A stretch of 31,815 nt of DNA from a virus: IMG/VR virus record IMGVR_UViG_3300032084_002774, positions 1 through 31,815 of that record; one strand, given 5' to 3'. Shown here one piece after another: positions 5,923 through 29,340 of the stretch. The position numbers and the translations under genes were made by a program. Each line of letters opens with the position of its first letter. Position 1 is the stretch's first letter. The notes under the pieces are model-generated. The model saw only the letters and a list, made by a program, of their open reading frames with translations. It had not been told where the DNA came from and ran no database searches.

Positions 5923-8900
5923 TTGAAGTTTGCTCATATTGCCGATACCCATATCAGAAATCTAAAGTTTCATTACGAATATAAAATCGTTTTCGAAAAA
6001 CTTTATAAGTCTCTAAAGAAAGAGAAAGTGGATTATATAATTCACTGTGGCGACATTGCCCATACAAAGACCCAAATCTCACCAGAGTTTGTGGAAATGT
6101 GTACTAACTTCTTTCGTTCATTAGCTGATATTGCCCCAACATACATTATTTTGGGAAATCACGATGGGAACTTAAAGAATTCCAGCCGACAAGACGCTCT
6201 AACACCCATTGCTGAAGCTTTGGAGCACCCAAGGTTACATTTGCTTAAGAATTCCGGAGAAACGATTCTGAGCGATTCTGTGGCAATAAATGTGTTATCA
6301 GTTTTTGACGAAGAAAATTGGGTTAAACCTGCCGATGATAATAAAATAAATATTGCTCTATATCACGGATCCGTCAGTGGAGTAAAAACTGACACTGGCT
6401 GGGTAATGGACCACGGCGAGCATCCGATTGAGATCTTTGAGGGGCACGATTACGCTTTCCTTGGAGATATTCATAAAACCAACCAGTGTCTTGATGAGGA
6501 AGGTCGCATCCGATACTGCGGATCTACTGTTCAACAGAATCATGGCGAAACTAATGATAAGGGCTTTTTAGTTTGGGACATCAAAGATAAAGAAAGTTTT
6601 GAATGCAGGCACATTGAACTTAAAAATCCCAGACCCTTTGTAACTATTAGCTTGACACCAAAAGGGAAGATGCCCAAGAACACAAGTGTTCCAGAAAAAG
6701 CAAGACTTCGCCTAATCTCGGAAAATAATTTGCCTCTCCATACTATGAGAAAAGCAATTGATGTCGCCAAGAGGCGTTTTAAGCCGGAAAGTATTTCTTT
6801 TTTCAATAGGGCTGCTGGAAAAAAGGGCAATGTTACCGACGAAAATGGTAATTTACTGGTTGAGAACCTTCGGGATATTGATGTTCAAGAGAGGCTAATA
6901 AAAGAATATTTAAAAGATTATGAATTGGACGAAGATGTAGAAAATCAAGTTTTAGACTTAAATTTGAAATACAATAAAATCGCAGAAGAAAATGAGCAGA
7001 TAGCCAGAAACGTAAATTGGAGACTCAAATCTTTAGAGTTTGATAACCTTTTTAATTATGGAGAGTCAAATTCTGTAAATTTTGAAAACCTCGAAGGGAT
7101 TATTGGAATTTTCGGAAAAAATTACTCTGGAAAATCTAGCATCATAGATTCTCTTCTGTTTACGGTTTTTAACTCTACATCTAAAAATGATAGAAAGAAT
7201 CTAAATGTAATTAACCAAAACAAGGAATATTGTTCTGGCAAAGCTGTACTTTCAATTGGAGATCTAGATTACACGATCGAAAGGAAGGCAGAAAAATATA
7301 TCAAAAATTTGAAAGGAAAGCAAACAACCGAAGCTAAAACAGATTTAGAATTTTCAGTTTATTCCGAAATAGAACAGGGCTCTGAAAGCCTAAACGGATT
7401 ATCTAGACCCGACACAGACAGAAACATAAGAAAAGTTTTTGGAACTTTAGACGACTTTTTGTATTCTTCCATGGCCAGTCAAATGGATTCTCTCTCTTTC
7501 ATCAAAGAGGGGTCTACAAAAAGAAAAGAAATTTTAGCCAACTTTCTAGACCTTAAATTTTTCGAAACAAAATATAAATTAGCAAAAGAGGACTCCACAG
7601 ACACTAGGGGTGCATTAAAAAAGATGAGCGGCAAAGATTTCAACAAAGAAATTTCAGACGCAAAAAATAACTTAATTGAATCCGAACGTGAATTAAGAGA
7701 CAAGAAAAGAGTGTGTCAAGAATATAAAAAACAAATCGAGACATATTTTGTAGATATTAAAAATATTGAAGAAAAAATTAACTCAATCCCTGCTGAAGTA
7801 ATTGACGTAGTAAAAGTTAAAACGCTTCTGGGCGATAAAAAGAAGAAACTCTTGGGTGCGAATGAAGAAATTGACGAATTAAAGAAAAATAAGCAAAAGT
7901 CAGAAAAAGATTATGACACAATTAAGAGCTTTCTCGGTACCTATGATAAAGAGCAATTATTTGACAAAAAGTTGAAAATAGACAATTTATCTAAAGACAT
8001 CGGCGGCTTAAATCTGAAGTTAAAAGAGGAAAATAAAGATTTAGCATACAATCGGAAAAAAATAAAAATGCTAGAAGACCATGAATACGATCCCGATTGT
8101 GAATATTGTTGTGAAAATCCATTTGTTAAAGATGCACACAAATCCAAGGATCATCTTCCAGTGAATGAGGAGAGGATCTTAGATTTTGAGACTTCTATCT
8201 CATCCTTAAAAGAAGAAATAGTTGAATTAAACCCGGATCTGATTGAGAAAAAGATTTCTGTCTACAATGAAATTTTAGGAGAAAGAAACAGACTCTCGAA
8301 TGAAATCATTAATCATGGTTTGAAAATCGACAAAAATAAATCTTGTATCACCAACTTGCTAAATGAAGTAGAAAAACTAGAAGGCGAGCTTTCTGAATAC
8401 GAGCAAAATAAAAAAGCTATTGAAAATTTGGAAAGTCTAAATTCAGAATTAAAAGATTTAAAATTTCAAGAGCAATCCGCAAAAAACAAAAGCGAGATCT
8501 GTAATAGTGATATTATGAAATTATATAAAGCCGTGGGATCCTTAGAGCAAAAAGTCTCTAACTTGCAAGAACAAAAAGATTCTTTCGAATCACTACAGTC
8601 AGAAATATCTGCATATGATTTATATATGACATGTATGAAATCGAATGGAATTGCCTTTGAGGTTATTCGTAAAAAATTACCTATAATCAATGAGGAAATA
8701 GCAAAGATTTTGGCAAATATTGTTGATTTTGAGATATTTTTTGAAGATGATGAAAATAGGTTGGATATTTTTATTCGTCATCCTTTATATGAGCCTCGTC
8801 CGTTAGAGATGGGCTCTGGGGCGGAAAAAACAATTGCAGCGATGGCAATTAGATTAGCCTTGCTGAGTGTTTCTAGCTTGCCAAAGGGGGACATCTTCAT

Positions 8901-9084
8901 CTTAGATGAGCCGGGTACCTCTCTTGACGAAGAAAATATGCAAGGATTCGTAGATATTCTTGCAATTATTAAAAATTATTTCAAAAAAGTATTGCTTATC
9001 TCGCATCTTGACACATTGAAAGACTGTGTTGATATGCAAATAACAATTGACAAAAAAGACGGATATGCATCCGTTATTGCATAA
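5923..9084 (+). CDS. Fused SbcD-SbcC (gp47-gp46 / Mre11-Rad50) recombination nuclease, 1053 aa
   Basis: TTG start at 5923 behind AGGAGAA (5911-5917). The first ~340 residues form a calcineurin-like phosphoesterase: IADTH (Asp8, His10), HCGD (Asp44), LGNHD (Asn79-His80-Asp81), YHGS (His148) and GH..LGDIH (His175, His184). The rest is an SMC-type ATPase: Walker A GKNYSGKS (398-405), long coiled coils, a zinc-hook CEYC (Cys726, Cys729) at the apex, signature GSGAEK (964-969), and Walker B DIFILDEP (990-997). Mre11-Rad50, SbcCD and T4 gp47/gp46 process DNA ends for recombination and host DNA degradation, normally as two proteins. Here one uninterrupted frame encodes both. It belongs to the primase transcript. 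Confidence 0.92.
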   Translation: MKFAHIADTHIRNLKFHYEYKIVFEKLYKSLKKEKVDYIIHCGDIAHTKTQISPEFVEMCTNFFRSLADIAPTYIILGNHDGNLKNSSRQDALTPIAEALEHPRLHLLKNSGETILSDSVAINVLSVFDEENWVKPADDNKINIALYHGSVSGVKTDTGWVMDHGEHPIEIFEGHDYAFLGDIHKTNQCLDEEGRIRYCGSTVQQNHGETNDKGFLVWDIKDKESFECRHIELKNPRPFVTISLTPKGKMPKNTSVPEKARLRLISENNLPLHTMRKAIDVAKRRFKPESISFFNRAAGKKGNVTDENGNLLVENLRDIDVQERLIKEYLKDYELDEDVENQVLDLNLKYNKIAEENEQIARNVNWRLKSLEFDNLFNYGESNSVNFENLEGIIGIFGKNYSGKSSIIDSLLFTVFNSTSKNDRKNLNVINQNKEYCSGKAVLSIGDLDYTIERKAEKYIKNLKGKQTTEAKTDLEFSVYSEIEQGSESLNGLSRPDTDRNIRKVFGTLDDFLYSSMASQMDSLSFIKEGSTKRKEILANFLDLKFFETKYKLAKEDSTDTRGALKKMSGKDFNKEISDAKNNLIESERELRDKKRVCQEYKKQIETYFVDIKNIEEKINSIPAEVIDVVKVKTLLGDKKKKLLGANEEIDELKKNKQKSEKDYDTIKSFLGTYDKEQLFDKKLKIDNLSKDIGGLNLKLKEENKDLAYNRKKIKMLEDHEYDPDCEYCCENPFVKDAHKSKDHLPVNEERILDFETSISSLKEEIVELNPDLIEKKISVYNEILGERNRLSNEIINHGLKIDKNKSCITNLLNEVEKLEGELSEYEQNKKAIENLESLNSELKDLKFQEQSAKNKSEICNSDIMKLYKAVGSLEQKVSNLQEQKDSFESLQSEISAYDLYMTCMKSNGIAFEVIRKKLPIINEEIAKILANIVDFEIFFEDDENRLDIFIRHPLYEPRPLEMGSGAEKTIAAMAIRLALLSVSSLPKGDIFILDEPGTSLDEENMQGFVDILAIIKNYFKKVLLISHLDTLKDCVDMQITIDKKDGYASVIA

Positions 9085-20043: not shown

Positions 20044-21753
20044 ATGTCAATTATTAATAAATTAACCGAAGGTATTGTTAGGCGTGATCTATCTAAAGAA
20101 GGAGCTGCACTTCTCTCCAAGTGGGAAAAGACAGGTCTCTTAGAAGGACTTACTAACGAGCGTACCAAACAAGGCATGGCAAGCCTTCTCGAAAACCAAG
20201 CAAAGGAACTTCTCCGTGAAGCCTCCTCTATGCAGGGCGGAGATGTCGAAGGATTCTCTGCAGTTGCATTTCCAATCGTTCGCCGCGTTTTTGGCGGATT
20301 GATCGCTAACGATCTTGTTTCAGTTCAACCAATGAGTTTGCCATCTGGCCTCATTTTCTTCATGGACTTTACATATTCTGGAGACACAACAACTCGTCTG
20401 GACTACCAAGCTGGTGAATCAGTATACGGTGGCGGAAAAGTTGCATCGCAAATTACTGGCGGTGTTTCTCTTGCAGGTCGTAACGCAGAATTGAGTGCAT
20501 ATGCTCTAAACAACGGCTACTCTAGCCCAACTGGGTCATCAGCTGCTGCAACCACAATGATTGCATCAGGTACTGTCGGCGACCCCGGCACTACTTTCTG
20601 GCTTGATACTGCATACAGCTCTTCAGCTGGTGTAGACAAGCTTGTTCGCTTCGATCCGGATCTTGAAGGTCTGAACGTAGCAGTCGCTAGAATCGCCCTT
20701 TCGGACCTTACTAGTGATCAATTCAACGTCAAAGATTATGTAACCATTATCAATGAAGTTGCATCTGGTTCTCTCGGTGCAGGTCGCATCACCCGCCGCT
20801 TGACTCGTGATGACGAAACAAACGCTGGTAACCTTTTGGTTGTCTTAGCAGCTACTGGTTCTGAAGACCTTGCAGCTCTGAGTACTTCACTAAACGGCAT
20901 CGGAAGCTGGGATTATGTCATTGATGACAACATCGGCGCATCAACAACTGTTGGCGCAGTCGTAGGCGCGACCTCATGGGGTCTCGAAGCCGAAGCAGCA
21001 ATTCCAGAAATCGACATCAAAGTTGACTCTGTTGCTGTTACAGCGAAGACCAAGAAGCTTAAAGCTAAGTGGACACCAGAATTGGCTCAAGACTTGAACG
21101 CATACCATAACTTGGATGCAGAAGTCGAGTTAACTTCTATCCTTTCAGAGCACATCGCTCTTGAAATCGACCAAGAGATCTTGGAAGACCTTGTTAAAGG
21201 TGCAACAGCATCTACTCTATACTGGTCACGTTTGCCGGGTAAGTTTGTTAACAGAACAACCGGTGCTGCAATCACTGGAGCATCATTCCCAGACTTCACT
21301 GGTAATGTTTCAGAGTGGTACGAGACCCTTGTTGAAACCATCAACGACGTTTCGGCACAAATTCACCGCAAGACACTAAGAGGCGGCGCAAACTTCATCG
21401 TGGTTTCACCAGAAGTTGCTAACCTCCTTGAGTTTACCGCTGGATTCCGTGGTGCTGTTACTCACGACGATGATCGTGGACAAGTTGGAGCAGTCAAGGT
21501 TGGTTCTTTGAGTAAGAAGTTCGACGTTTACGTTGATCCTTATTTCCCAAGAAACGTTGTACTGGCTGGTCGCAAAGGCTCTTCTTTCCTTGAAAGTGGA
21601 TACGTCTATGCACCATATGTACCTCTCCAGATGACTCCTACAATCTTCGGAACAGAGGATTTCGTCCCACGTAAGGGCGTTATGACTCGTTATGCGAAGA
21701 AGATGGTTCGTCCAGATATGTACGGATTGGTTATTATTGCTGACCTAGTATAG
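20044..21753 (+). CDS. Major capsid protein (T4 gp23 type), 569 aa
   Basis: ATG 20044 behind AAAAGGAGATTTTTAAAA. The N-terminus includes SLLENQAKELLREASSM and then AVAFPIVRRVFGGLIANDLV and SVQPMSLPSGLIFFMDFTY, near-diagnostic of gp23. C-terminus PDMYGLVIIADLV is also typical. The first about 60 residues probably form the prohead delta peptide; LRE-A (Glu59/Ala60) and LLE-N (Glu50/Asn51) fit the gp21 cleavage rule (Leu/Ile-X-Glu). Codon use is visibly more C-ended and uniform than in neighbours (frequent CTT, GTT, GAC, AAC, GGC), as expected of the most highly expressed gene. A strong terminator follows 29 nt after the stop. Confidence 0.95.
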   Translation: MSIINKLTEGIVRRDLSKEGAALLSKWEKTGLLEGLTNERTKQGMASLLENQAKELLREASSMQGGDVEGFSAVAFPIVRRVFGGLIANDLVSVQPMSLPSGLIFFMDFTYSGDTTTRLDYQAGESVYGGGKVASQITGGVSLAGRNAELSAYALNNGYSSPTGSSAAATTMIASGTVGDPGTTFWLDTAYSSSAGVDKLVRFDPDLEGLNVAVARIALSDLTSDQFNVKDYVTIINEVASGSLGAGRITRRLTRDDETNAGNLLVVLAATGSEDLAALSTSLNGIGSWDYVIDDNIGASTTVGAVVGATSWGLEAEAAIPEIDIKVDSVAVTAKTKKLKAKWTPELAQDLNAYHNLDAEVELTSILSEHIALEIDQEILEDLVKGATASTLYWSRLPGKFVNRTTGAAITGASFPDFTGNVSEWYETLVETINDVSAQIHRKTLRGGANFIVVSPEVANLLEFTAGFRGAVTHDDDRGQVGAVKVGSLSKKFDVYVDPYFPRNVVLAGRKGSSFLESGYVYAPYVPLQMTPTIFGTEDFVPRKGVMTRYAKKMVRPDMYGLVIIADLV

Positions 21754-21782
21754 TTCTAGATAATAAGTCACTAATTTACATG

Positions 21783-21815
21783 CCCCTCTACAATTTTGTA
21801 GAGGGGTTTTGTGTT
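21783..21815 (+). terminator. Rho-independent terminator after major capsid gene
   Basis: CCCCTCTAC (21783-21791) pairs with GTAGAGGGG (21798-21806) around the loop AATTTT; the stem can extend by AA/TT. A T-rich tail (TTTTGTGTTT) follows immediately. Strong 9-11 bp GC-containing stem in an AT-rich genome; it separates capsid from neck transcripts. Confidence 0.88.
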
Positions 21816-21849
21816 TCTGGAAACTACTTAAAGCTAGGGAGGAATTTAT

Positions 21850-23118
21850 ATGGCTTTTCCAACACTAACACCAGCAAGTCAGATGAGTAAGTCGATTTTG
21901 CCAGCGTCAGGTAATGTATCTGCCGTCGCCTCAACTTTGCCACTTAGCGTATATTCCGACTCTTCACAGTTTTTATCAGGAGCCTCTGACCAAGTGGCTT
22001 ATACTTATAGAAAAATAGGCGGAGATGTATTAGACATTGAGTTAAAGGCAGAAAATGTATATGCAAACTATCAAGAAGCAGTATTGGAATATAGTTATCT
22101 TGTAAATCTGCATCAATCTAAAAATATTTTATCAGATGTATTAGGTCAGACAACGGGCACATTCGACCACAGTGGTCAAAGATTAACTGGCCCAGAAAAC
22201 GTTAATTTAAAATTTCCAAGAGTGATGTTCGAGTATGCCAGAAGGGTGTCTGACAGTTATTCTTACTCGGCAGATATAGGAGGAACGATTCCTATTTATT
22301 CTGCCTCATTTGATCTTAAGCGTGGACAACAAGATTACGATCTGCAGGCAATTATCTCTGGGTCATCCGCATCCGGAAACGACCAATCTGGCGGTGCCGC
22401 ACCATATGCTGGCATAGTTGGAGATAAAAGAGTGATTGTAAAAAAAGTTTATTACAAAACTCCGAACGCGATGTGGCGATTTTTTGGATATTTCGGTGGT
22501 CTGAATGTTGTTGGCAATTTAAGCCAATATGGTCAGTATACTGACGACTCTACATTTGAGATTGTACCCGCATGGCAGAATAAATTACAAGCCATGGCAT
22601 ATGAAGATAATATTTATACCAGACTTTCCCACTATTCTTACGAATTAAAAAATAACAAACTTAGAATTTTCCCAGCACCTCAAACACTTTCAAACTATAA
22701 TCATATGTGGGTGGAGTTTTCTGTAATTCCGGCAGCTTGGGAAAATAATGAAGAATATGACAACGGCGCAGATGGTATTAACAATTTAAATACGTTGCCG
22801 TTTGATAATATACCATATGACAATATCAATGCCATTGGGAAACAGTGGATCAGACGCTTCGCACTTGCCTTGTCTAAAGAGACCTTGGCACAAATTAGAG
22901 GAAAATTTCAAACAATCCCGATTCCCGGAGAGTCTGTAAATCTAAATTCAGACACGTTATTGAGTCAAGCAAAAGAAGAGCAAGAAAAGCTTAGAGAGGA
23001 ACTTAAAGAGATCATGGATCAGCTAACATACGCTGAAATGGCCAAAACTGATGCCGAAAAGGTAGATGCAGTAGAAAATATTCAGAAAAGAGTTCCAATG
23101 ATAATTTTTCAAGGGTAA
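21850..23118 (+). CDS. Neck / head-completion protein (gp13-like), 422 aa
   Basis: ATG 21850 behind AGGGAGGAATTTAT. The C-terminal region (IGKQWIRRFALALSKETLAQ, then IRGKFQTIPIPGESVNLNSD and a coiled REELKEIMDQLTYAEMAK) resembles gp13-type neck proteins, which close the filled head before tail joining. An N-terminal roughly 170-residue stretch is beta-rich. Longer than T4 gp13 (about 310 aa), so domain additions are likely. It is the first gene after the capsid terminator and leads the neck cluster. Identification depends on C-terminal pattern and gene order; a related neck or connector role is more certain than the exact T4 number. Confidence 0.6.
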   Translation: MAFPTLTPASQMSKSILPASGNVSAVASTLPLSVYSDSSQFLSGASDQVAYTYRKIGGDVLDIELKAENVYANYQEAVLEYSYLVNLHQSKNILSDVLGQTTGTFDHSGQRLTGPENVNLKFPRVMFEYARRVSDSYSYSADIGGTIPIYSASFDLKRGQQDYDLQAIISGSSASGNDQSGGAAPYAGIVGDKRVIVKKVYYKTPNAMWRFFGYFGGLNVVGNLSQYGQYTDDSTFEIVPAWQNKLQAMAYEDNIYTRLSHYSYELKNNKLRIFPAPQTLSNYNHMWVEFSVIPAAWENNEEYDNGADGINNLNTLPFDNIPYDNINAIGKQWIRRFALALSKETLAQIRGKFQTIPIPGESVNLNSDTLLSQAKEEQEKLREELKEIMDQLTYAEMAKTDAEKVDAVENIQKRVPMIIFQG

Positions 23119-23121
23119 AAC

Positions 23122-23991
23122 ATGAGCAGTAGAAAAAAACAATATGATGGCTTCAGACCTTATTTTCAAGATAGAAAACCCGGTGATTCTACGCCGGGAG
23201 AAAAAGAGATCACCTTCATGCCATCAACCATAGAGACTGTTGATTTTGCCCTATATGAGTTTCTCGATGAAAAATTAAATATTTTTTGCACAACAAACGA
23301 AGGGTTCCAGAAGGTACCCTTGATTTGGTCAATGCCCGAAAGGTCTTTCCAGACGAAAGGAAATAAGGATTTGAGAAGCAAAGATATTTTTGTATTGCCA
23401 GCTATGAGTATAGAGCGAACCAGTATGGAAAAAGACCCGAACATGAAGGGGGTCGCTTGGTCTCACGTACCAAGACAAAATGATGCCAAGGGCGGTGCAA
23501 TTACAGTAGCTAGAAGAATTCAACAAGAAAAAACTTCTAATTTTGCAAATGCTGATGCAAAAAGGCTCTTTAAACAAAAGACCTATCCATTTAAAAATGA
23601 AAAGGTTGTGTATGAGACTATAACGATGCCAATACCAACCTATGTAGTAATAAACTACAAGATAACTATAAATACGGAATATCAGCAACAGATGAATGAA
23701 ATAGTTACCCCCTTTATGGCTTATACCGGGCAAATTAATAATTTTTTTATAAATAAAGACGGTCATCGATTTGAAGGCTTCGTCCAAGGCGACTTCGGCT
23801 TAGAGAATAATATTTCAAATCTCGCAGAAGAAGAAAGAAACTTCAAAACTACAGTAAATTTAAAAGTTTTGGGCTACTTGATGGGCTCTGACAAAAATGA
23901 TAATCAGCCAAAGGTTACAATTAGGGAATCTGCCGCCGAAATCAGATTTGGCAGAGAAAGAGTCATCCTCGGCGATAAAAAGGAATATTAA
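23122..23991 (+). CDS. Tail sheath stabiliser / tail completion candidate (gp15-like), 289 aa
   Basis: Starts 3 nt after the previous stop. Contains FALYEFLDEKLNIFCT followed by KVPLIWSMPERSFQTKG, and a conserved-looking core VYETITMPIPTYVVINYKIT with NTEYQQQMNEIVTPFMAYTG. The VPLIW-near-N-terminus plus membrane-free beta-rich core is what I expect of gp15-type terminator proteins that cap the contracted tail and bind the neck. The evidence is pattern-level; it could also be another neck subunit. The gene sits between gp13- and gp14-type genes. Confidence 0.45.
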   Translation: MSSRKKQYDGFRPYFQDRKPGDSTPGEKEITFMPSTIETVDFALYEFLDEKLNIFCTTNEGFQKVPLIWSMPERSFQTKGNKDLRSKDIFVLPAMSIERTSMEKDPNMKGVAWSHVPRQNDAKGGAITVARRIQQEKTSNFANADAKRLFKQKTYPFKNEKVVYETITMPIPTYVVINYKITINTEYQQQMNEIVTPFMAYTGQINNFFINKDGHRFEGFVQGDFGLENNISNLAEEERNFKTTVNLKVLGYLMGSDKNDNQPKVTIRESAAEIRFGRERVILGDKKEY

Positions 23992-23993
23992 TT

Positions 23994-24827
23994 ATGTCTG
24001 ATAACAAGTGGACGAAACCAAGTAACCCTCCTCCTCCGTTATTTCTCGGAGAAAAGGAGAGAAACTTAGTAAAACAGGTTAATGACGAGCTTCTGGAAAG
24101 GGTAGTTGGGCAGCAAATACTATATTTGCCCGTCTCCACAGAATATACAAATTTTCACCCCATATACGGAGAGGCAATAGAGAAATCTTTCTTGCCCCCT
24201 GTTAGAGTTTATGCCCTTGTAGAGTTTGATGGTATAAAAACTACTACTGAAAATTATGGTTTAGACAAAGAGAAGTCCATAACTGTAAAATTTCACGAAA
24301 GAAGACTGCAAGAAGATCAAGATTTGATGCTAAGGGAAGGTGATTATGTTCAATATGGAGATTCGTTTTACGAGATAGTTTCCTTAAACGAAGATAGACA
24401 ACTCTTTGGTCAAATAGATCATCTTTTTCAAATTTCTGCCAAATGCATTAGAACAAGGCGGGGAATTATGGATATGTCCGTCATGTCTGATGAGATCCAA
24501 GCGTCACTTTCGGAAGATGATGCTTCTTCTCAACAAGGCGGCGATTCTGGACCATATCACTCACACGAACAGAGTATCGTCCGAGTTGTGTATTTTCACG
24601 ATATCACTGGCAGCTCAATCGCCGCAGATACTAATTTAAATTCCATCTTGGGTGTTACTGGAGCCCTTCCGCTTCCGGCCTCATCAGTTTATCTGAATGG
24701 CGCAAGACAGACGGTCGGGTCTGACCCCGCAACGGGTGAGTATTATATACAAGAGGGGTTTATTTACAATTCTTATGTAGTTTCTTCGGGAAACAGAATT
24801 CTTTTAGAGGTTTTAACAATAGTATGA
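23994..24827 (+). CDS. Neck protein (gp14-like head-tail connector), 277 aa
   Basis: ATG 23994 follows AAGGAATATTAATT. The region LLERVVGQQILYLPVSTEYT, HPIYGEAIEKSFLPPVRVYA, and EGDYVQYGDSFYEIVSLNED followed by FGQIDHLFQISAKCIRTRRG has the spacing of gp14-type neck proteins. The C-terminus contains a His-rich DSGPYHSHEQ and a Gly/Ser-rich domain that is not part of the T4 protein, perhaps a surface addition. Its last 4 nt (ATGA) overlap the start of the YeaH-like gene, tying virion connector expression to the PrkA-type block. Confidence 0.6.
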   Translation: MSDNKWTKPSNPPPPLFLGEKERNLVKQVNDELLERVVGQQILYLPVSTEYTNFHPIYGEAIEKSFLPPVRVYALVEFDGIKTTTENYGLDKEKSITVKFHERRLQEDQDLMLREGDYVQYGDSFYEIVSLNEDRQLFGQIDHLFQISAKCIRTRRGIMDMSVMSDEIQASLSEDDASSQQGGDSGPYHSHEQSIVRVVYFHDITGSSIAADTNLNSILGVTGALPLPASSVYLNGARQTVGSDPATGEYYIQEGFIYNSYVVSSGNRILLEVLTIV

Positions 24828-26032
24828 GTATTTTTAGAGAACACAAAACATCAGCTGATAGATCAGCAGCAGATAGAAAAAGACACAAACAGAAAATAGA
24901 TAAAGCTCTTCGAGAGGGGATCAAAGATGTGGTCGCCGACGAATCTATTATCGGACAAGACGGAAAAAAGAAGGTAAAAATTCCCGTCAAAGGCATCAAA
25001 GAGTACCACTTCATCTATGGAGAGAATGGCGAGAACCAGAAGGCTGGCTCCGCCGGAGATAAAAAGATAAAAAGAGGTCAAGTATTAAGAAAGGGTGGAA
25101 AACAAAAACAACAAGCGCAGGGTAAGAAAGGCTCAAAAGATGCTGGTGATGAATATTACGAAGTAGAAATAACCCTAGATGAACTGGCAGAATACCTCTT
25201 TCAAGATTTAGAGTTACCAGACTTGGAGAAGAAGAGGTTTAGACTTATTAAAGATCACAAGATGAAAAGAAGTGGCTTTAGAAAAAAGGGCTTGAGATCT
25301 AAGCTTTCCAAGAAGGAAACAATAAAAAGAAAAATTAGACGCAAAAAAATGGCTATAGCGTCTGGGGCGTTTGACCCGGAGTCTGGAGAAAGATTTCCTT
25401 TTCACGAAGATGATTTAAAATATAAACACATGAAGCCAAAGCCACAGCAGAATAACTCTGCCGTAGTATTTTTTCTAATGGATGTTTCTGGTTCAATGAC
25501 TAAAGATAAGAAATATATTGCTAGAAGCTTTTACTTTTTGCTCTATCAATTCTTGAGATATAAATATGACAATATTGAAGTCGTTTTCATATCTCACTGT
25601 ACCGAGGCACGCGAAGTAAACGAAGATGATTTTTTTAAGAGAGGGACAACCGGCGGCACCATTATGTCATCTGCCTTGGAGATGACAAAAGATATAGTAA
25701 ACAAGAGATATCACCCTTCTAGCTGGAATATTTATACTTTTTATTCCGGTGATGGTGAAAACTGGTCCTTTGATGACCCCAAGACGGTCGCTCTTTTTAC
25801 TGAATTAAAGCAACTCAATCAAATGATCTGCTATGCAGAAATCGACCCAATGGCACATCCTGAGTCTGAATTATCAATATTGACAAAGAGCTTTAAATAT
25901 AACCAAAGCGAAGCAACAAATTTATGGAAAAAATTAACCCCCATAACAGATGATTCATTTAAAAAAGTTAAATTATCAAAGCCAACACACATTTGGCAAT
26001 CATTTAAACATATATTTGGAGGAAAAAGCTAA
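24824..26032 (+). CDS. yeaH: YeaH/DUF444-family protein with VWA domain, 402 aa
   Basis: Reads like E. coli YeaH along its length: a basic N-terminus, LDELAEYLFQDLELPDLEKK, KRSGFRKKGLRSKLS, then a C-terminal VWA domain. The metal-ion-dependent adhesion site is VVFFLMDVSGSMTKDKK (Asp220, Ser222, Ser224), followed by EVVFISHCTEAREVNEDDFF, RGTTGGTIMSSALEM (Thr275-Thr279) and WNIYTFYSGDGENW. Bacterial YeaH is made with the kinase PrkA/YeaG in starvation and stationary phase; the two interact genetically. This copy is intact, about 25 residues shorter than E. coli's. It overlaps the gp14-like gene by 4 nt and the SpoVR gene by 1 nt. Confidence 0.9.
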   Translation: MSIFREHKTSADRSAADRKRHKQKIDKALREGIKDVVADESIIGQDGKKKVKIPVKGIKEYHFIYGENGENQKAGSAGDKKIKRGQVLRKGGKQKQQAQGKKGSKDAGDEYYEVEITLDELAEYLFQDLELPDLEKKRFRLIKDHKMKRSGFRKKGLRSKLSKKETIKRKIRRKKMAIASGAFDPESGERFPFHEDDLKYKHMKPKPQQNNSAVVFFLMDVSGSMTKDKKYIARSFYFLLYQFLRYKYDNIEVVFISHCTEAREVNEDDFFKRGTTGGTIMSSALEMTKDIVNKRYHPSSWNIYTFYSGDGENWSFDDPKTVALFTELKQLNQMICYAEIDPMAHPESELSILTKSFKYNQSEATNLWKKLTPITDDSFKKVKLSKPTHIWQSFKHIFGGKS

Positions 26033-27333
26033 TGAAAGACTGGACGGTAAAAGAATTACAAAACTGGGATGAAAAAATTTGTAAAATAGCCAAAGAAAAA
26101 TATAATTTAGATTGGTTTCCAATAGAATATGAAATTTTAAATTATCACGAGATGATCGGTGCCATGGCATATACAGGATTGCCTACTCATTATCGCCACT
26201 GGTCATTCGGAAAATCTTTTGAAAGAACCATTACCAGATATAATTTGGGAATGGAGGGTTTACCATATGAAATGATCATTAACTCAAACCCATCCATTGC
26301 ATACTTGATGCTTGAGAATCCAACGAGTACGCACCTCCTAACGATGTCTCATTGCGTTGGGCACTCTGATTTTTTTAAAAACAATAGAATGTTTACACAT
26401 ACAGATCCAGATAACGTAATATCGAGATTCAAATCAGCGGCTAAAAGGGTGCAGCAATATATAGAAGATCCAGATATTGGGATTGAAAAAGTCGAAAGAG
26501 TCTTGGACGCTTGTCACTCTATTCAATACCAGATACCTAGAACTCCGGGAATCAACAGAATAAGCCAAGATGAGGCAAAGAAGGATTTATTTAAAAAAAC
26601 AAAGGGCAAAATCAATTTGGATGTTGGTCTTGTTAGGAAAGAATATAACTTATTAGAATTTATTAGAAAAAATGCAAGAGACCTCGAAGACTGGCAACAG
26701 GATTTGATGGAAATGGTAGAGAGAAGATCTAAATATTTTGTCCCGCAAGGTCAGACCAAAATTATGAACGAGGGCTGGGCAGTTTTAATTCATGAAAAAA
26801 TTATGTATGACCTTGAATTGCCAGACAAATATCATCTTGCATTTTTGAAAACACACAATCAGGTTGTTCGCCCGATCGTGGGAAGGGTCAATCCTTACCA
26901 CTTGGGATACTCTTTATTTAAAAAAATAGAAAGAGACCACGGCTTTGAGGAGTGTATGCTGGTTAGACAAACACACGATGACGAATCTTTTATTCGCAAA
27001 TATTTAGACGAAGAAATGTGTAACGAGCTAAACTTATTTTCATACTCTTATCAGAAAAACACAGGAAATTATGCAATAAATGAAATTTCTGATGAAGAAG
27101 GTTGGAAAAGCGTTAGGAACGCTCTAATTAGTAGTGTGGGTCTTAATGGAGTCCCGATTGTCTATGTTGAAGATTTCGAAAAGAAAACAAACACTCTTTT
27201 CATAAAACACGAACATGACGGACGAGATTTAGATTTATCATACGCAAATAAGGTATACGACAATATATGTTATTTGTGGAATGACAATGTGGAATTTATA
27301 ACGATCATCGAAGATGAAATATGGGAATTTTAA
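26032..27333 (+). CDS. SpoVR/YcgB-family protein, 433 aa
   Basis: ATG 26032 shares its A with the previous TAA. Motifs typical of SpoVR/YcgB: NYHEMIGAMAYTGLPTHYRH (38-57), HWSFGKSFERT, MIINSNPSIAYLMLEN, SHCVGHSDFFKNN (106-118), DWQQDLMEMVERRSKYFVPQ, and C-terminal HLGYSLFKKIERDHGFEECM. Somewhat shorter than the bacterial proteins (about 470-510 aa). Molecular function is unsettled; in Bacillus it affects spore cortex formation, and in enterobacteria it travels with PrkA and YeaH in the stationary-phase regulon. Here it lies between the two partner genes, giving a complete set. The histidines and cysteines in motifs might bind metal; that is speculation. Confidence 0.9.
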   Translation: MKDWTVKELQNWDEKICKIAKEKYNLDWFPIEYEILNYHEMIGAMAYTGLPTHYRHWSFGKSFERTITRYNLGMEGLPYEMIINSNPSIAYLMLENPTSTHLLTMSHCVGHSDFFKNNRMFTHTDPDNVISRFKSAAKRVQQYIEDPDIGIEKVERVLDACHSIQYQIPRTPGINRISQDEAKKDLFKKTKGKINLDVGLVRKEYNLLEFIRKNARDLEDWQQDLMEMVERRSKYFVPQGQTKIMNEGWAVLIHEKIMYDLELPDKYHLAFLKTHNQVVRPIVGRVNPYHLGYSLFKKIERDHGFEECMLVRQTHDDESFIRKYLDEEMCNELNLFSYSYQKNTGNYAINEISDEEGWKSVRNALISSVGLNGVPIVYVEDFEKKTNTLFIKHEHDGRDLDLSYANKVYDNICYLWNDNVEFITIIEDEIWEF

Positions 27334-27334
27334 A

Positions 27335-29278
27335 ATGACAAAAAAATCAAAAACTAATAAATTTTTAGAACTGGCTGAAAAGCACAAAAACAACAGCAAG
27401 AGAGAGAAGTTTAAGGGTACGTTTTCTGATTACCTTGAACTTCTAGAGAAAGACAAAACTATTTCTCAACTTGCTCACAAGAGACTTTATAAGACGATTG
27501 TGAACAAGGGTATTACTAGGATGACAGAAGATGATTCTCGATGTAATACTCTTTTTGACGGTGAATCCTTAAAAACTTATGATTATTTTCAAACAAGGTT
27601 TTTTGGGATGGAAAGACCCCTAGCGAAAGTCATGAGGTATCTCCACTCAGCCGCCATGAAAGGAGAAGAGAGTCGCCAAGTACTCTTATTACTCGGACCT
27701 GTCGGCGCGGGTAAATCAGCCCTCGTTGAACATATTAAAAGAGCCCTTGAGCAAAGTGGAATACTATATTCTCTTGACGGTTGCCCAATCAATGAAGAGC
27801 CCATACATCTTATCCCCAGAAGCCTAAGAGATCAGTTCCAAGATTTATATGGTGTTAGAGTAGAAGGTGATCTCTGCCCAGTTTGTCGCCACAGACTATT
27901 GGAAGAATACGACGGAGATTATATGAAATTTCCCGTAAAGGAAACCAGCTTTTCAATTCGCGGAAGGCGTGGGGTGGGTGTTGTTCCTCCTATGGATGCC
28001 AACACACAGGATACAAGCATCCTAATAGGGTCAGAGGACATTTCAAAATTAGACCTCTATCCGGAAGACGACCCCCGTGCTCTAAGCCTAAATGGAGCCT
28101 TCAACGTAGGAAATCGTGGAATTGTTGAGTTTGTTGAGGTTTTCAAGAACGAGATTGAATTCTTGCATACAATGATTACTGCAACACAAGAAAAAGCAGT
28201 CCCATCCCCCGGTAAAGGTGCCATGATTTACTTTGATGGTGTTATCCTTGCACACTGTAACGAAGCTGAGTGGATTAAATTTAAATCAGAGAACACTAAC
28301 GAAGCAATTCTTGACAGAATTGTAAGAGTTAACATACCTTATTGTTTGGAAGTAAATGAAGAACAGAAGATTTATAAAAAACTACTAGACGAGTCGGACT
28401 TTGATGCACACATCGCACCACACACTTTAGAGCTGGCAGCAATGTTTTCTGTTCTTACGAGACTTAAGCCATCCAATAAAGTTGACCCGGTAACAAAAAT
28501 GAAAATCTATAACGGTCAAGAAGTAGTTGAAAAGGGCTATATCAAGAAAATTGATATTAATGATCTTAGGGATGAAGTTCGTGATGAGGGCATGACGGGA
28601 ATTTCGACAAGATTTATTATGAAATCCATCGACGCGGCCGTCGCCGACTCTGAAAATAATATGGTTACCCCCATTTCAATTAGAGATGCCCTAATCAAAC
28701 AAGTTAAGGAACAGGTTGTTGTCGAAGACCTAAGAGAGAAATACCTCTCATTCCTTCAAAAAGAGCTACATGACGAATATCTAAAAATACTAGAGACGGA
28801 AATTACTAAGGCTTTTGTTTCGGCATATCAGGAGCAGGCAGAATCCTTATTCAACAATTATTTAGATCACGCAGAAGCCTATGTTAATGGCTCCAAGGTG
28901 AAAGATAAAGTAACGAATGAGGAAATGCATGCTGATGAGGAATTTCTACAATCAATCGAAGAACAAATTGGTATCATCGGCTCTGCAAGAGAAAATTTCA
29001 GAGCTGACATTACGGCTTACATGTTTGCAAAATTGAGAAAAGGCGAGTTAATTGATTGGACCTCTTATGGACCACTCAAAGAAGCAATCGAAAATAAACT
29101 CCTCGCTTCAGTTCGTGATATTTCCAGAATTGTTACAAAGTCTAAATCAAGAGACAAAAAACAGCAAGGTAAATACAACGAGATGATTAAAACATTGATG
29201 GATGAATATGGATATAGCGAGAGGTCAGCAAACGAAGTTATTAAATATGCTTCCAATAACCTCTGGAGAGACAGCTAG
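27335..29278 (+). CDS. prkA: PrkA-family AAA+ serine protein kinase, 647 aa
   Basis: The frame is open from 27314, but ATG 27335, 1 nt after the SpoVR stop with GGGA 8 nt upstream, is the likely start and gives 647 aa (E. coli PrkA/YeaG about 644). Motifs: GMERPLAKVMRYLHSAAMKG, Walker A GPVGAGKS (121-128), DLCPVCRHRL (Cys181, Cys184), VVPPMDANTQDTSILIGSED, GAMIYFDGVILAHCNEAEW, EAILDRIVRV (Arg328, candidate arginine finger) and LDHAEAYVNGSKVKDKVTNE, then SIEEQIGI in the C-terminal kinase/regulatory part. Known homologues are starvation-induced kinases with AAA+ ATPase cores; the Bacillus one has reported protease activity. The gene is complete and followed 33 nt later by a terminator, so it ends the unit. 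Confidence 0.94.
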   Translation: MTKKSKTNKFLELAEKHKNNSKREKFKGTFSDYLELLEKDKTISQLAHKRLYKTIVNKGITRMTEDDSRCNTLFDGESLKTYDYFQTRFFGMERPLAKVMRYLHSAAMKGEESRQVLLLLGPVGAGKSALVEHIKRALEQSGILYSLDGCPINEEPIHLIPRSLRDQFQDLYGVRVEGDLCPVCRHRLLEEYDGDYMKFPVKETSFSIRGRRGVGVVPPMDANTQDTSILIGSEDISKLDLYPEDDPRALSLNGAFNVGNRGIVEFVEVFKNEIEFLHTMITATQEKAVPSPGKGAMIYFDGVILAHCNEAEWIKFKSENTNEAILDRIVRVNIPYCLEVNEEQKIYKKLLDESDFDAHIAPHTLELAAMFSVLTRLKPSNKVDPVTKMKIYNGQEVVEKGYIKKIDINDLRDEVRDEGMTGISTRFIMKSIDAAVADSENNMVTPISIRDALIKQVKEQVVVEDLREKYLSFLQKELHDEYLKILETEITKAFVSAYQEQAESLFNNYLDHAEAYVNGSKVKDKVTNEEMHADEEFLQSIEEQIGIIGSARENFRADITAYMFAKLRKGELIDWTSYGPLKEAIENKLLASVRDISRIVTKSKSRDKKQQGKYNEMIKTLMDEYGYSERSANEVIKYASNNLWRDS

Positions 29279-29310
29279 AAAATTTAAAAATAATATTTTT
29301 AAAATAAAAA

Positions 29311-29340
29311 GCCTCGCAAGAATTGCGAGGCTTATTTTTT
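29311..29340 (+). terminator. Rho-independent terminator after PrkA gene
   Basis: GCCTCGCAA (29311-29319) and TTGCGAGGC (29323-29331) form a perfect 9-bp stem with a GAA loop, followed by TTATTTTTTT. The upstream A-rich flank would also make it work in reverse. Ends the neck/PrkA unit. Confidence 0.92.

Follow-up and report, generated by a model that had tools for sequence, protein, structure and literature searches.

A conserved three-gene cassette of the DUF444/YeaH, SpoVR and PrkA families in T4-like phages

Background

Why would a T4-like phage carry, complete, three genes of a bacterial module that is linked to starvation and sporulation? The question is raised by the 31.8-kb linear IMG/VR record IMGVR_UViG_3300032084_002774 (positions 1–31,815, the whole stretch analysed and here called the window). 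Positions 24824–29278 of the window hold three intact open reading frames (ORFs), which encode a DUF444/YeaH protein with a VWA domain, a SpoVR protein and a full-length PrkA. This trio, termed the cassette below, is retained as a unit in one gene order across viral loci, its characteristic residues are intact, all three genes are under purifying selection, and the phage proteins form a clade of their own.

In bacteria the PrkA-YeaH-SpoVR module is old and widespread, and there is no agreed biochemical activity for it. The literature describes YeaG and YeaH as acting jointly as a 'metabolic brake' in Escherichia coli under nitrogen starvation (PMC10954441). PrkA of Bacillus anthracis is a clade III AAA+ protein that is required for sporulation and osmotic stress (PMC13001217).

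The three cassette genes

The original prediction, made from the letters of the window, assigned the three genes to the DUF444/YeaH, SpoVR and PrkA families, and profile searches place them there (Table 1). PrkA displays both domains of its family over its full length, with 486.5 bits for PF08298 and 267.9 bits for the C-terminal PF06798 against cut-offs of 25. Scores are below the NCBIfam equivalog cut-offs, at 412.7 vs 576 bits for PrkA (NF011999, YeaG-type) and 375.9 vs 467.95 bits for the VWA protein (spore_yhbH, TIGR02877), which fits divergent relatives and not recent copies of bacterial genes. A comparison of the VWA protein with PDB sequences gave weak mannanase matches only, which were discarded.

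The joints between the genes are largely as first described. The VWA gene overlaps the gene upstream by ATGA (24824–24827) and meets SpoVR at TAATG (26030–26034). The 1-nt gap claimed between SpoVR and PrkA depends on the start codon: the PrkA ORF opens at ATG 27314, which produces a 20-nt overlap with SpoVR, and the gap exists only with a start at the internal ATG 27335. The latter is near the start position of PrkA in many relatives. The strong terminator proposed at the end of the cassette is represented by the hairpin at 29309–29333. The 'gp14-like' neck gene proposed immediately 5' of the VWA gene finds no support, as 23994–24827 has neither a Pfam nor a PHROG match; the adaptor match belongs to the gene at 21850–23118 (phrog_211).

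The residues expected of each family are conserved. The VWA protein has a complete metal-ion (MIDAS) site, consisting of D220-x-S222-x-S224, T279 and D310, which is invariant across 13 diverse homologues. In SpoVR, H107 and H111 (H-x-x-G-H), N246-E247-G248 and H254 are invariant in 110 of 110 homologues. PrkA Walker A (GPVGAGKS, with K134 and S135), D308, N316, R335 and R433 are kept in 74 of 74 phage-clade rows, where the roles of Walker A Lys, Walker B Asp, sensor-1 Asn, arginine finger and sensor-2 Arg were assigned by alignment position; the loss of ATPase residues against which the original prediction had cautioned is not seen. A C157/H165/C188/C191 cluster is also present in PrkA, each position being kept in at least 72 of the 74 rows.

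Spread among viral loci

PrkA-seeded scans of IMG/VR yielded 110 loci, or 79 after removal of identical PrkA genes, the window included. The survey of viral genomes that the original prediction had called for thus shows an intact trio, in the order VWA-SpoVR-PrkA, in 105 of the 110. Four of the remaining five (two contigs, each fetched twice) have a split VWA gene, and one is truncated at a contig end. The split VWA consists of two overlapping ORFs at positions 7459–8710 in loci L011 and L012 and may represent either a frameshift or a sequencing error. In a SpoVR-seeded scan 71 of 76 loci are complete, and the others have the same VWA split or are at contig ends. Some relative of PrkA is encoded on at least 549 viral stretches, and 12 of the 13 long viral records that bear the trio encode the major capsid protein gp23.

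Origin and selection

Separate trees were made for PrkA, SpoVR and the VWA protein; nine annotated phage records and as many as 78 bacterial loci were included. In each tree the phage proteins form a single clade, as the original prediction had proposed to check; support in the Shimodaira-Hasegawa-like approximate likelihood ratio test is 100 for PrkA, 100 for SpoVR and 97 for VWA. The nearest bacteria are of a clostridial type, with 58–60% PrkA identity and moderate support (88) for the sister group. The position of clostridial-type trios as sister group of the phage clade is tentative, because the bacterial rows are the best 80 matches of one scan.

The only row labelled bacterial within the phage clade is L051 (NHDW01000006.1), a 305-kb contig from a Methylococcaceae metagenome-assembled genome with a phage-type trio. 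It was rejected as bacterial and appears to be a misbinned phage, because gp23 is on the same contig.

The ratio of nonsynonymous to synonymous substitution rates (dN/dS) is 0.015–0.036 for all three genes in the closest pairs, most of the more distant pairs being saturated. At the level of these comparisons, purifying selection on all three genes is strong. The simplest history would be that the whole trio was captured once and then evolved as a unit over a long time in phages. It would have been taken up once by an ancestor of the T4-like phages concerned, or have moved between them early, and it would have been kept as one cassette.

Genome placement

The window has the setting of a T4-like phage, with genes for gp23, portal, TerL and a gp21-like protease recognisable by Pfam and PHROG profile matches. 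Neck genes and cassette form one unit bounded by the hairpins at 21782–21807 and 29309–29333, in the order adaptor, two genes, DUF444/YeaH, SpoVR and PrkA. In this lineage the cassette is probably made late, together with the head-tail genes.

The virion operon of the original prediction is thus present in the window, and in 23 of the 79 non-identical loci the roughly 5.7 kb upstream of PrkA contain neck homologues; it is not the setting in general. A tail sheath gene is near the cassette in 12 of the 79, and the neck-linked or sheath-linked set has 29 members. In 42 loci the cassette is near PhoH, a pyridoxal phosphate-dependent enzyme, a GroEL-like gene or a different conserved non-virion gene; this set and the virion-linked one have no locus in common. 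On nine long T4-like relatives the cassette is 70–112 kb from gp23, distances that were derived from contig ranges and gp23 positions. Because other loci place the cassette near non-virion genes and far from gp23, the virion-operon setting is a trait of one lineage, that of the window. It may set late expression there, and it is not the general purpose of the cassette.

Table 1. Positions of the cassette genes and adjoining features in the window
Feature	Position	Strand	Evidence and remarks
Major capsid protein gp23	20044..21753	+	PF07068 4.6e-77; context
Terminator-like hairpin, gp23/neck-gene boundary	21782..21807	+	11-pair stem; upstream edge of the neck-plus-trio unit
Head-tail adaptor (Ad2-like), first gene of the unit	21850..23118	+	phrog_211 6e-12
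Two genes between adaptor and cassette (23122-23991, 23994-24827)	23122..24827	+	Conserved in 23 loci
VWA/DUF444 (YeaH/YhbH-like), 402 amino acids	24824..26032	+	PF04285 1.7e-106, 357 bits
SpoVR, 433 amino acids	26032..27333	+	PF04293 5.6e-116, 388.1 bits, profile positions 1-405 of 407
PrkA AAA+, 654 amino acids (ATG 27314) or 647 amino acids (ATG 27335)	27314..29278	+	PF08298 5.9e-146, PF06798 1.3e-79
Bidirectional terminator-like hairpin closing the unit	29309..29333	.	11-pair stem, 6 G-C, T-rich tails on both strands

SpoVR structure

A first structural model of SpoVR, from 16 sequences, was poor (predicted local distance difference test, pLDDT, of 67.5) and was replaced by a model from 110 sequences with a pLDDT of 91.6 and a predicted template modelling score of 0.89. 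A Foldseek search of a viral library with this model gave one match, to an unnamed protein. When non-significant Foldseek candidates were aligned in a second look, nearly all were zincins, and nearly all of these matches were gluzincin peptidases. The best has a Z score of 11.8 (3.4 Å over 180 residues), followed by 9.9, 8.9 and 8.9.

The H-x-x-G-H helix and an NEG-W/F-A motif in the model match the needs of a gluzincin zinc site, which is suggestive only. The second motif recalls the NEGFA of M1 aminopeptidases. On the basis of the model SpoVR may be an atypical zincin, with the NEG motif as its predicted active site. The SpoVR homologue of the huge phage LR756504 (L048, 14453–16357) has an intein-like insertion right after the invariant NEG motif.

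Proposed function and alternatives

We tentatively prefer the reading that the cassette encodes a phage-owned remodelling machine of AAA+, VWA and SpoVR parts, which puts the host into a starvation-like quiescence; the module would have been captured once and kept as a cassette. In this scheme PrkA would form an AAA+ ring that uses ATP to remodel proteins. The VWA protein would serve as adaptor or activator, docking through its MIDAS site, and SpoVR would be a metal-binding subunit of zincin fold by which the target is bound or processed. The machine, by analogy to YeaG and YeaH, would act on host proteins and keep the infected cell starvation-like, quiescent yet productive. Speaking for this reading are the family assignments, the joint retention in one order, the separate phage clade, the low dN/dS, the intact ATPase residues with a lysine (K437) at the position of YeaG K426, and the 42 loci in which the cassette adjoins non-virion genes. 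PrkA is read as a remodeller and not as a kinase because the kinase and protease activity of B. anthracis PrkA is negligible, none being detectable (PMC13001217).

Several points weigh against this proposal. No relative of the SpoVR sequence was found in PDB, and a Foldseek search of PDB with the SpoVR model gave no significant match (E of 0.07 at best). SpoVR lacks the catalytic glutamate of HExxH, position 108 being C, V, A or G in the 110 rows. Clostridial-type trios may differ in function from E. coli YeaGH, and in the lineage of the window the neck genes and the cassette can be co-transcribed, as would also be expected for a virion role. A more far-reaching form of the proposal is that the three parts (AAA+ PrkA, MIDAS adaptor and atypical zincin-fold SpoVR) are a dedicated host-state controller, a phage-evolved obligate cassette that has been re-placed among genome regions in a widespread T4-like lineage. 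This form is rather unlikely; if true, it would also account for what bacterial SpoVR is.

A role in counter-defence or in clearance of host proteins, by which the machine, during infection, would unfold or degrade proteins of host defence or regulation, is unlikely. The intact AAA+ ATPase motifs of PrkA and a zincin-like SpoVR would allow a split ATP-dependent remodeller or protease, but the missing HExxH glutamate does not favour one, and a search with a library of known defence systems gave no meaningful match, none being above noise.

Virion assembly or quality control, with the AAA+/VWA pair as a MoxR-VWA-like chaperone acting on neck or tail parts, is an alternative of low probability. 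It would account for the loci with neck genes upstream or a tail sheath gene nearby, for the single unit between terminators in the window, and for Thermus phage Lalka8, where the trio is between portal/minor head and TerL genes. This role is weak because in most relatives the cassette lies apart from head and neck genes, as seen in the 42 non-virion loci and in the distances to gp23 on the long relatives. In addition, bacterial relatives have no virion, and the window PrkA has no MoxR, AAA_3 or AAA_5 match in Pfam. The likeness to the MoxR AAA+/VWA pairs RavA-ViaA and NorQ-NorD, in which an AAA+ ATPase has a VWA/MIDAS partner, is one of plan only, and the phage system differs further in having SpoVR as a third partner.

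The 'AAA+ kinase' of the original prediction is doubtful, and a protein kinase acting on host or virion proteins in late infection is improbable. Pfam names the PrkA C-terminal domain as serine protein kinase, and phage PrkA K437 aligns with E. coli YeaG K426, the alanine mutant of which is termed catalytically defective (PMC10954441). However, the Thermus phage PrkAs have D at this position, the Pfam matches of PrkA are AAA_PrkA, PrkA and a weak AAA_16, with no Hanks-type protein kinase domain, and B. anthracis PrkA has no detectable autophosphorylation (PMC13001217).

The possibility that the cassette is bacterial DNA, neutral or of recent acquisition, or results from a chimeric assembly, for which the bacterial nature of the families and the roughly 60% identity to clostridial PrkA might speak, is rejected as highly improbable in view of 79 non-identical loci in their own clade with dN/dS near 0.02, the same neck-plus-trio neighbourhood in 23 non-identical viral loci, and gp23 on nearly all of the long records.

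Comparison with known systems

The bacterial prkA-yeaH/yhbH-spoVR modules (yeaGH plus ycgB in E. coli; prkA, yhbH and spoVR in Bacillus) have the same three families, close linkage and intact motifs. Their order is mostly prkA-vwa-spoVR in contrast to vwa-spoVR-prkA in the phages, although a few thermophilic Bacillota have the phage order. The phage proteins are in their own clade and below the NCBIfam equivalog cut-offs.

Whether such genes had been described in phages, which the original prediction left undecided, can be answered in part. Thermus phages phiYS40, MN1, phiLo and Lalka8 have VWA, SpoVR and PrkA genes in the order of the window, but with about 33% PrkA identity to it and on a separate branch in all trees. 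The phiYS40 annotations read conserved bacterial protein, SpoVR and serine kinase, and in this phage SpoVR and PrkA are separated by an additional gene. The Ralstonia jumbo phage RsoM2USA has SpoVR and PrkA by annotation. The huge uncultured phages LR745206, LR756511, LR756504 and LR756502 have all three genes, on other PrkA branches; in LR745206, LR756504 and LR756511 the order is PrkA-VWA-SpoVR, unlike the window. In viromes of the Eastern Tropical North Pacific oxygen-minimum zone, phage-borne spoVR is reported as the most abundant sporulation auxiliary metabolic gene, and the text of that study mentions neither prkA nor the DUF444 partner (PMC8940887).

Enterobacter phage LAU1 (L044, MN688132) starts with yeaG and yeaH beside lambda-like tail genes. 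These are possibly flanking host DNA within the deposited phage record, and they were used as sequence comparators only.

A search of one literature library found no paper that treats the trio as a phage system, the Thermus phage annotations being gene by gene. New here are how widely the trio occurs, its grouping as one phage clade in each of three trees, its obligate linkage and gene order, its mobility among regions of the genome and the structural lead on SpoVR.

Other features of the window

A hairpin of differing sequence is also found at the post-gp23 position in about 20 relatives. Many relatives have a conserved stretch like GGAAACTACTTAATGCTAGGGAGGAATT after the gp23 terminator and before the neck gene (21782–21850 in the window), which is a possible candidate for a late promoter or leader. 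The T4 late promoter core TATAAATA occurs 9 times in the window, against an expectation of 2.0; the sites are on both strands, most of them within genes. None is in the gap upstream of the neck-plus-trio unit, and therefore the promoter motif was not used as evidence.

No PHROG profile matches the genes at 23122–23991 and 23994–24827 with E values up to 5. No known RNA families or tRNAs were found in the window. Positions 5923–9084 represent a single ORF of 1053 amino acids with a TTG start, which matches phage families that are SbcD-like at residues 1–513 and SbcC-like at residues 185–1051. By these matches it is possibly a fusion of the equivalents of T4 gp47 and gp46.

Conclusion

The fixed order and strong purifying selection in phages imply that the three genes work as one machine that is worth its cost in infection. 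The findings suggest that phages carrying the cassette actively determine the physiology of the infected cell. The viral spoVR genes that surveys of oxygen-minimum waters class under 'sporulation' may be part of a three-gene system for host state and not of sporulation, and the phage trio offers a compact system for testing how the module acts.

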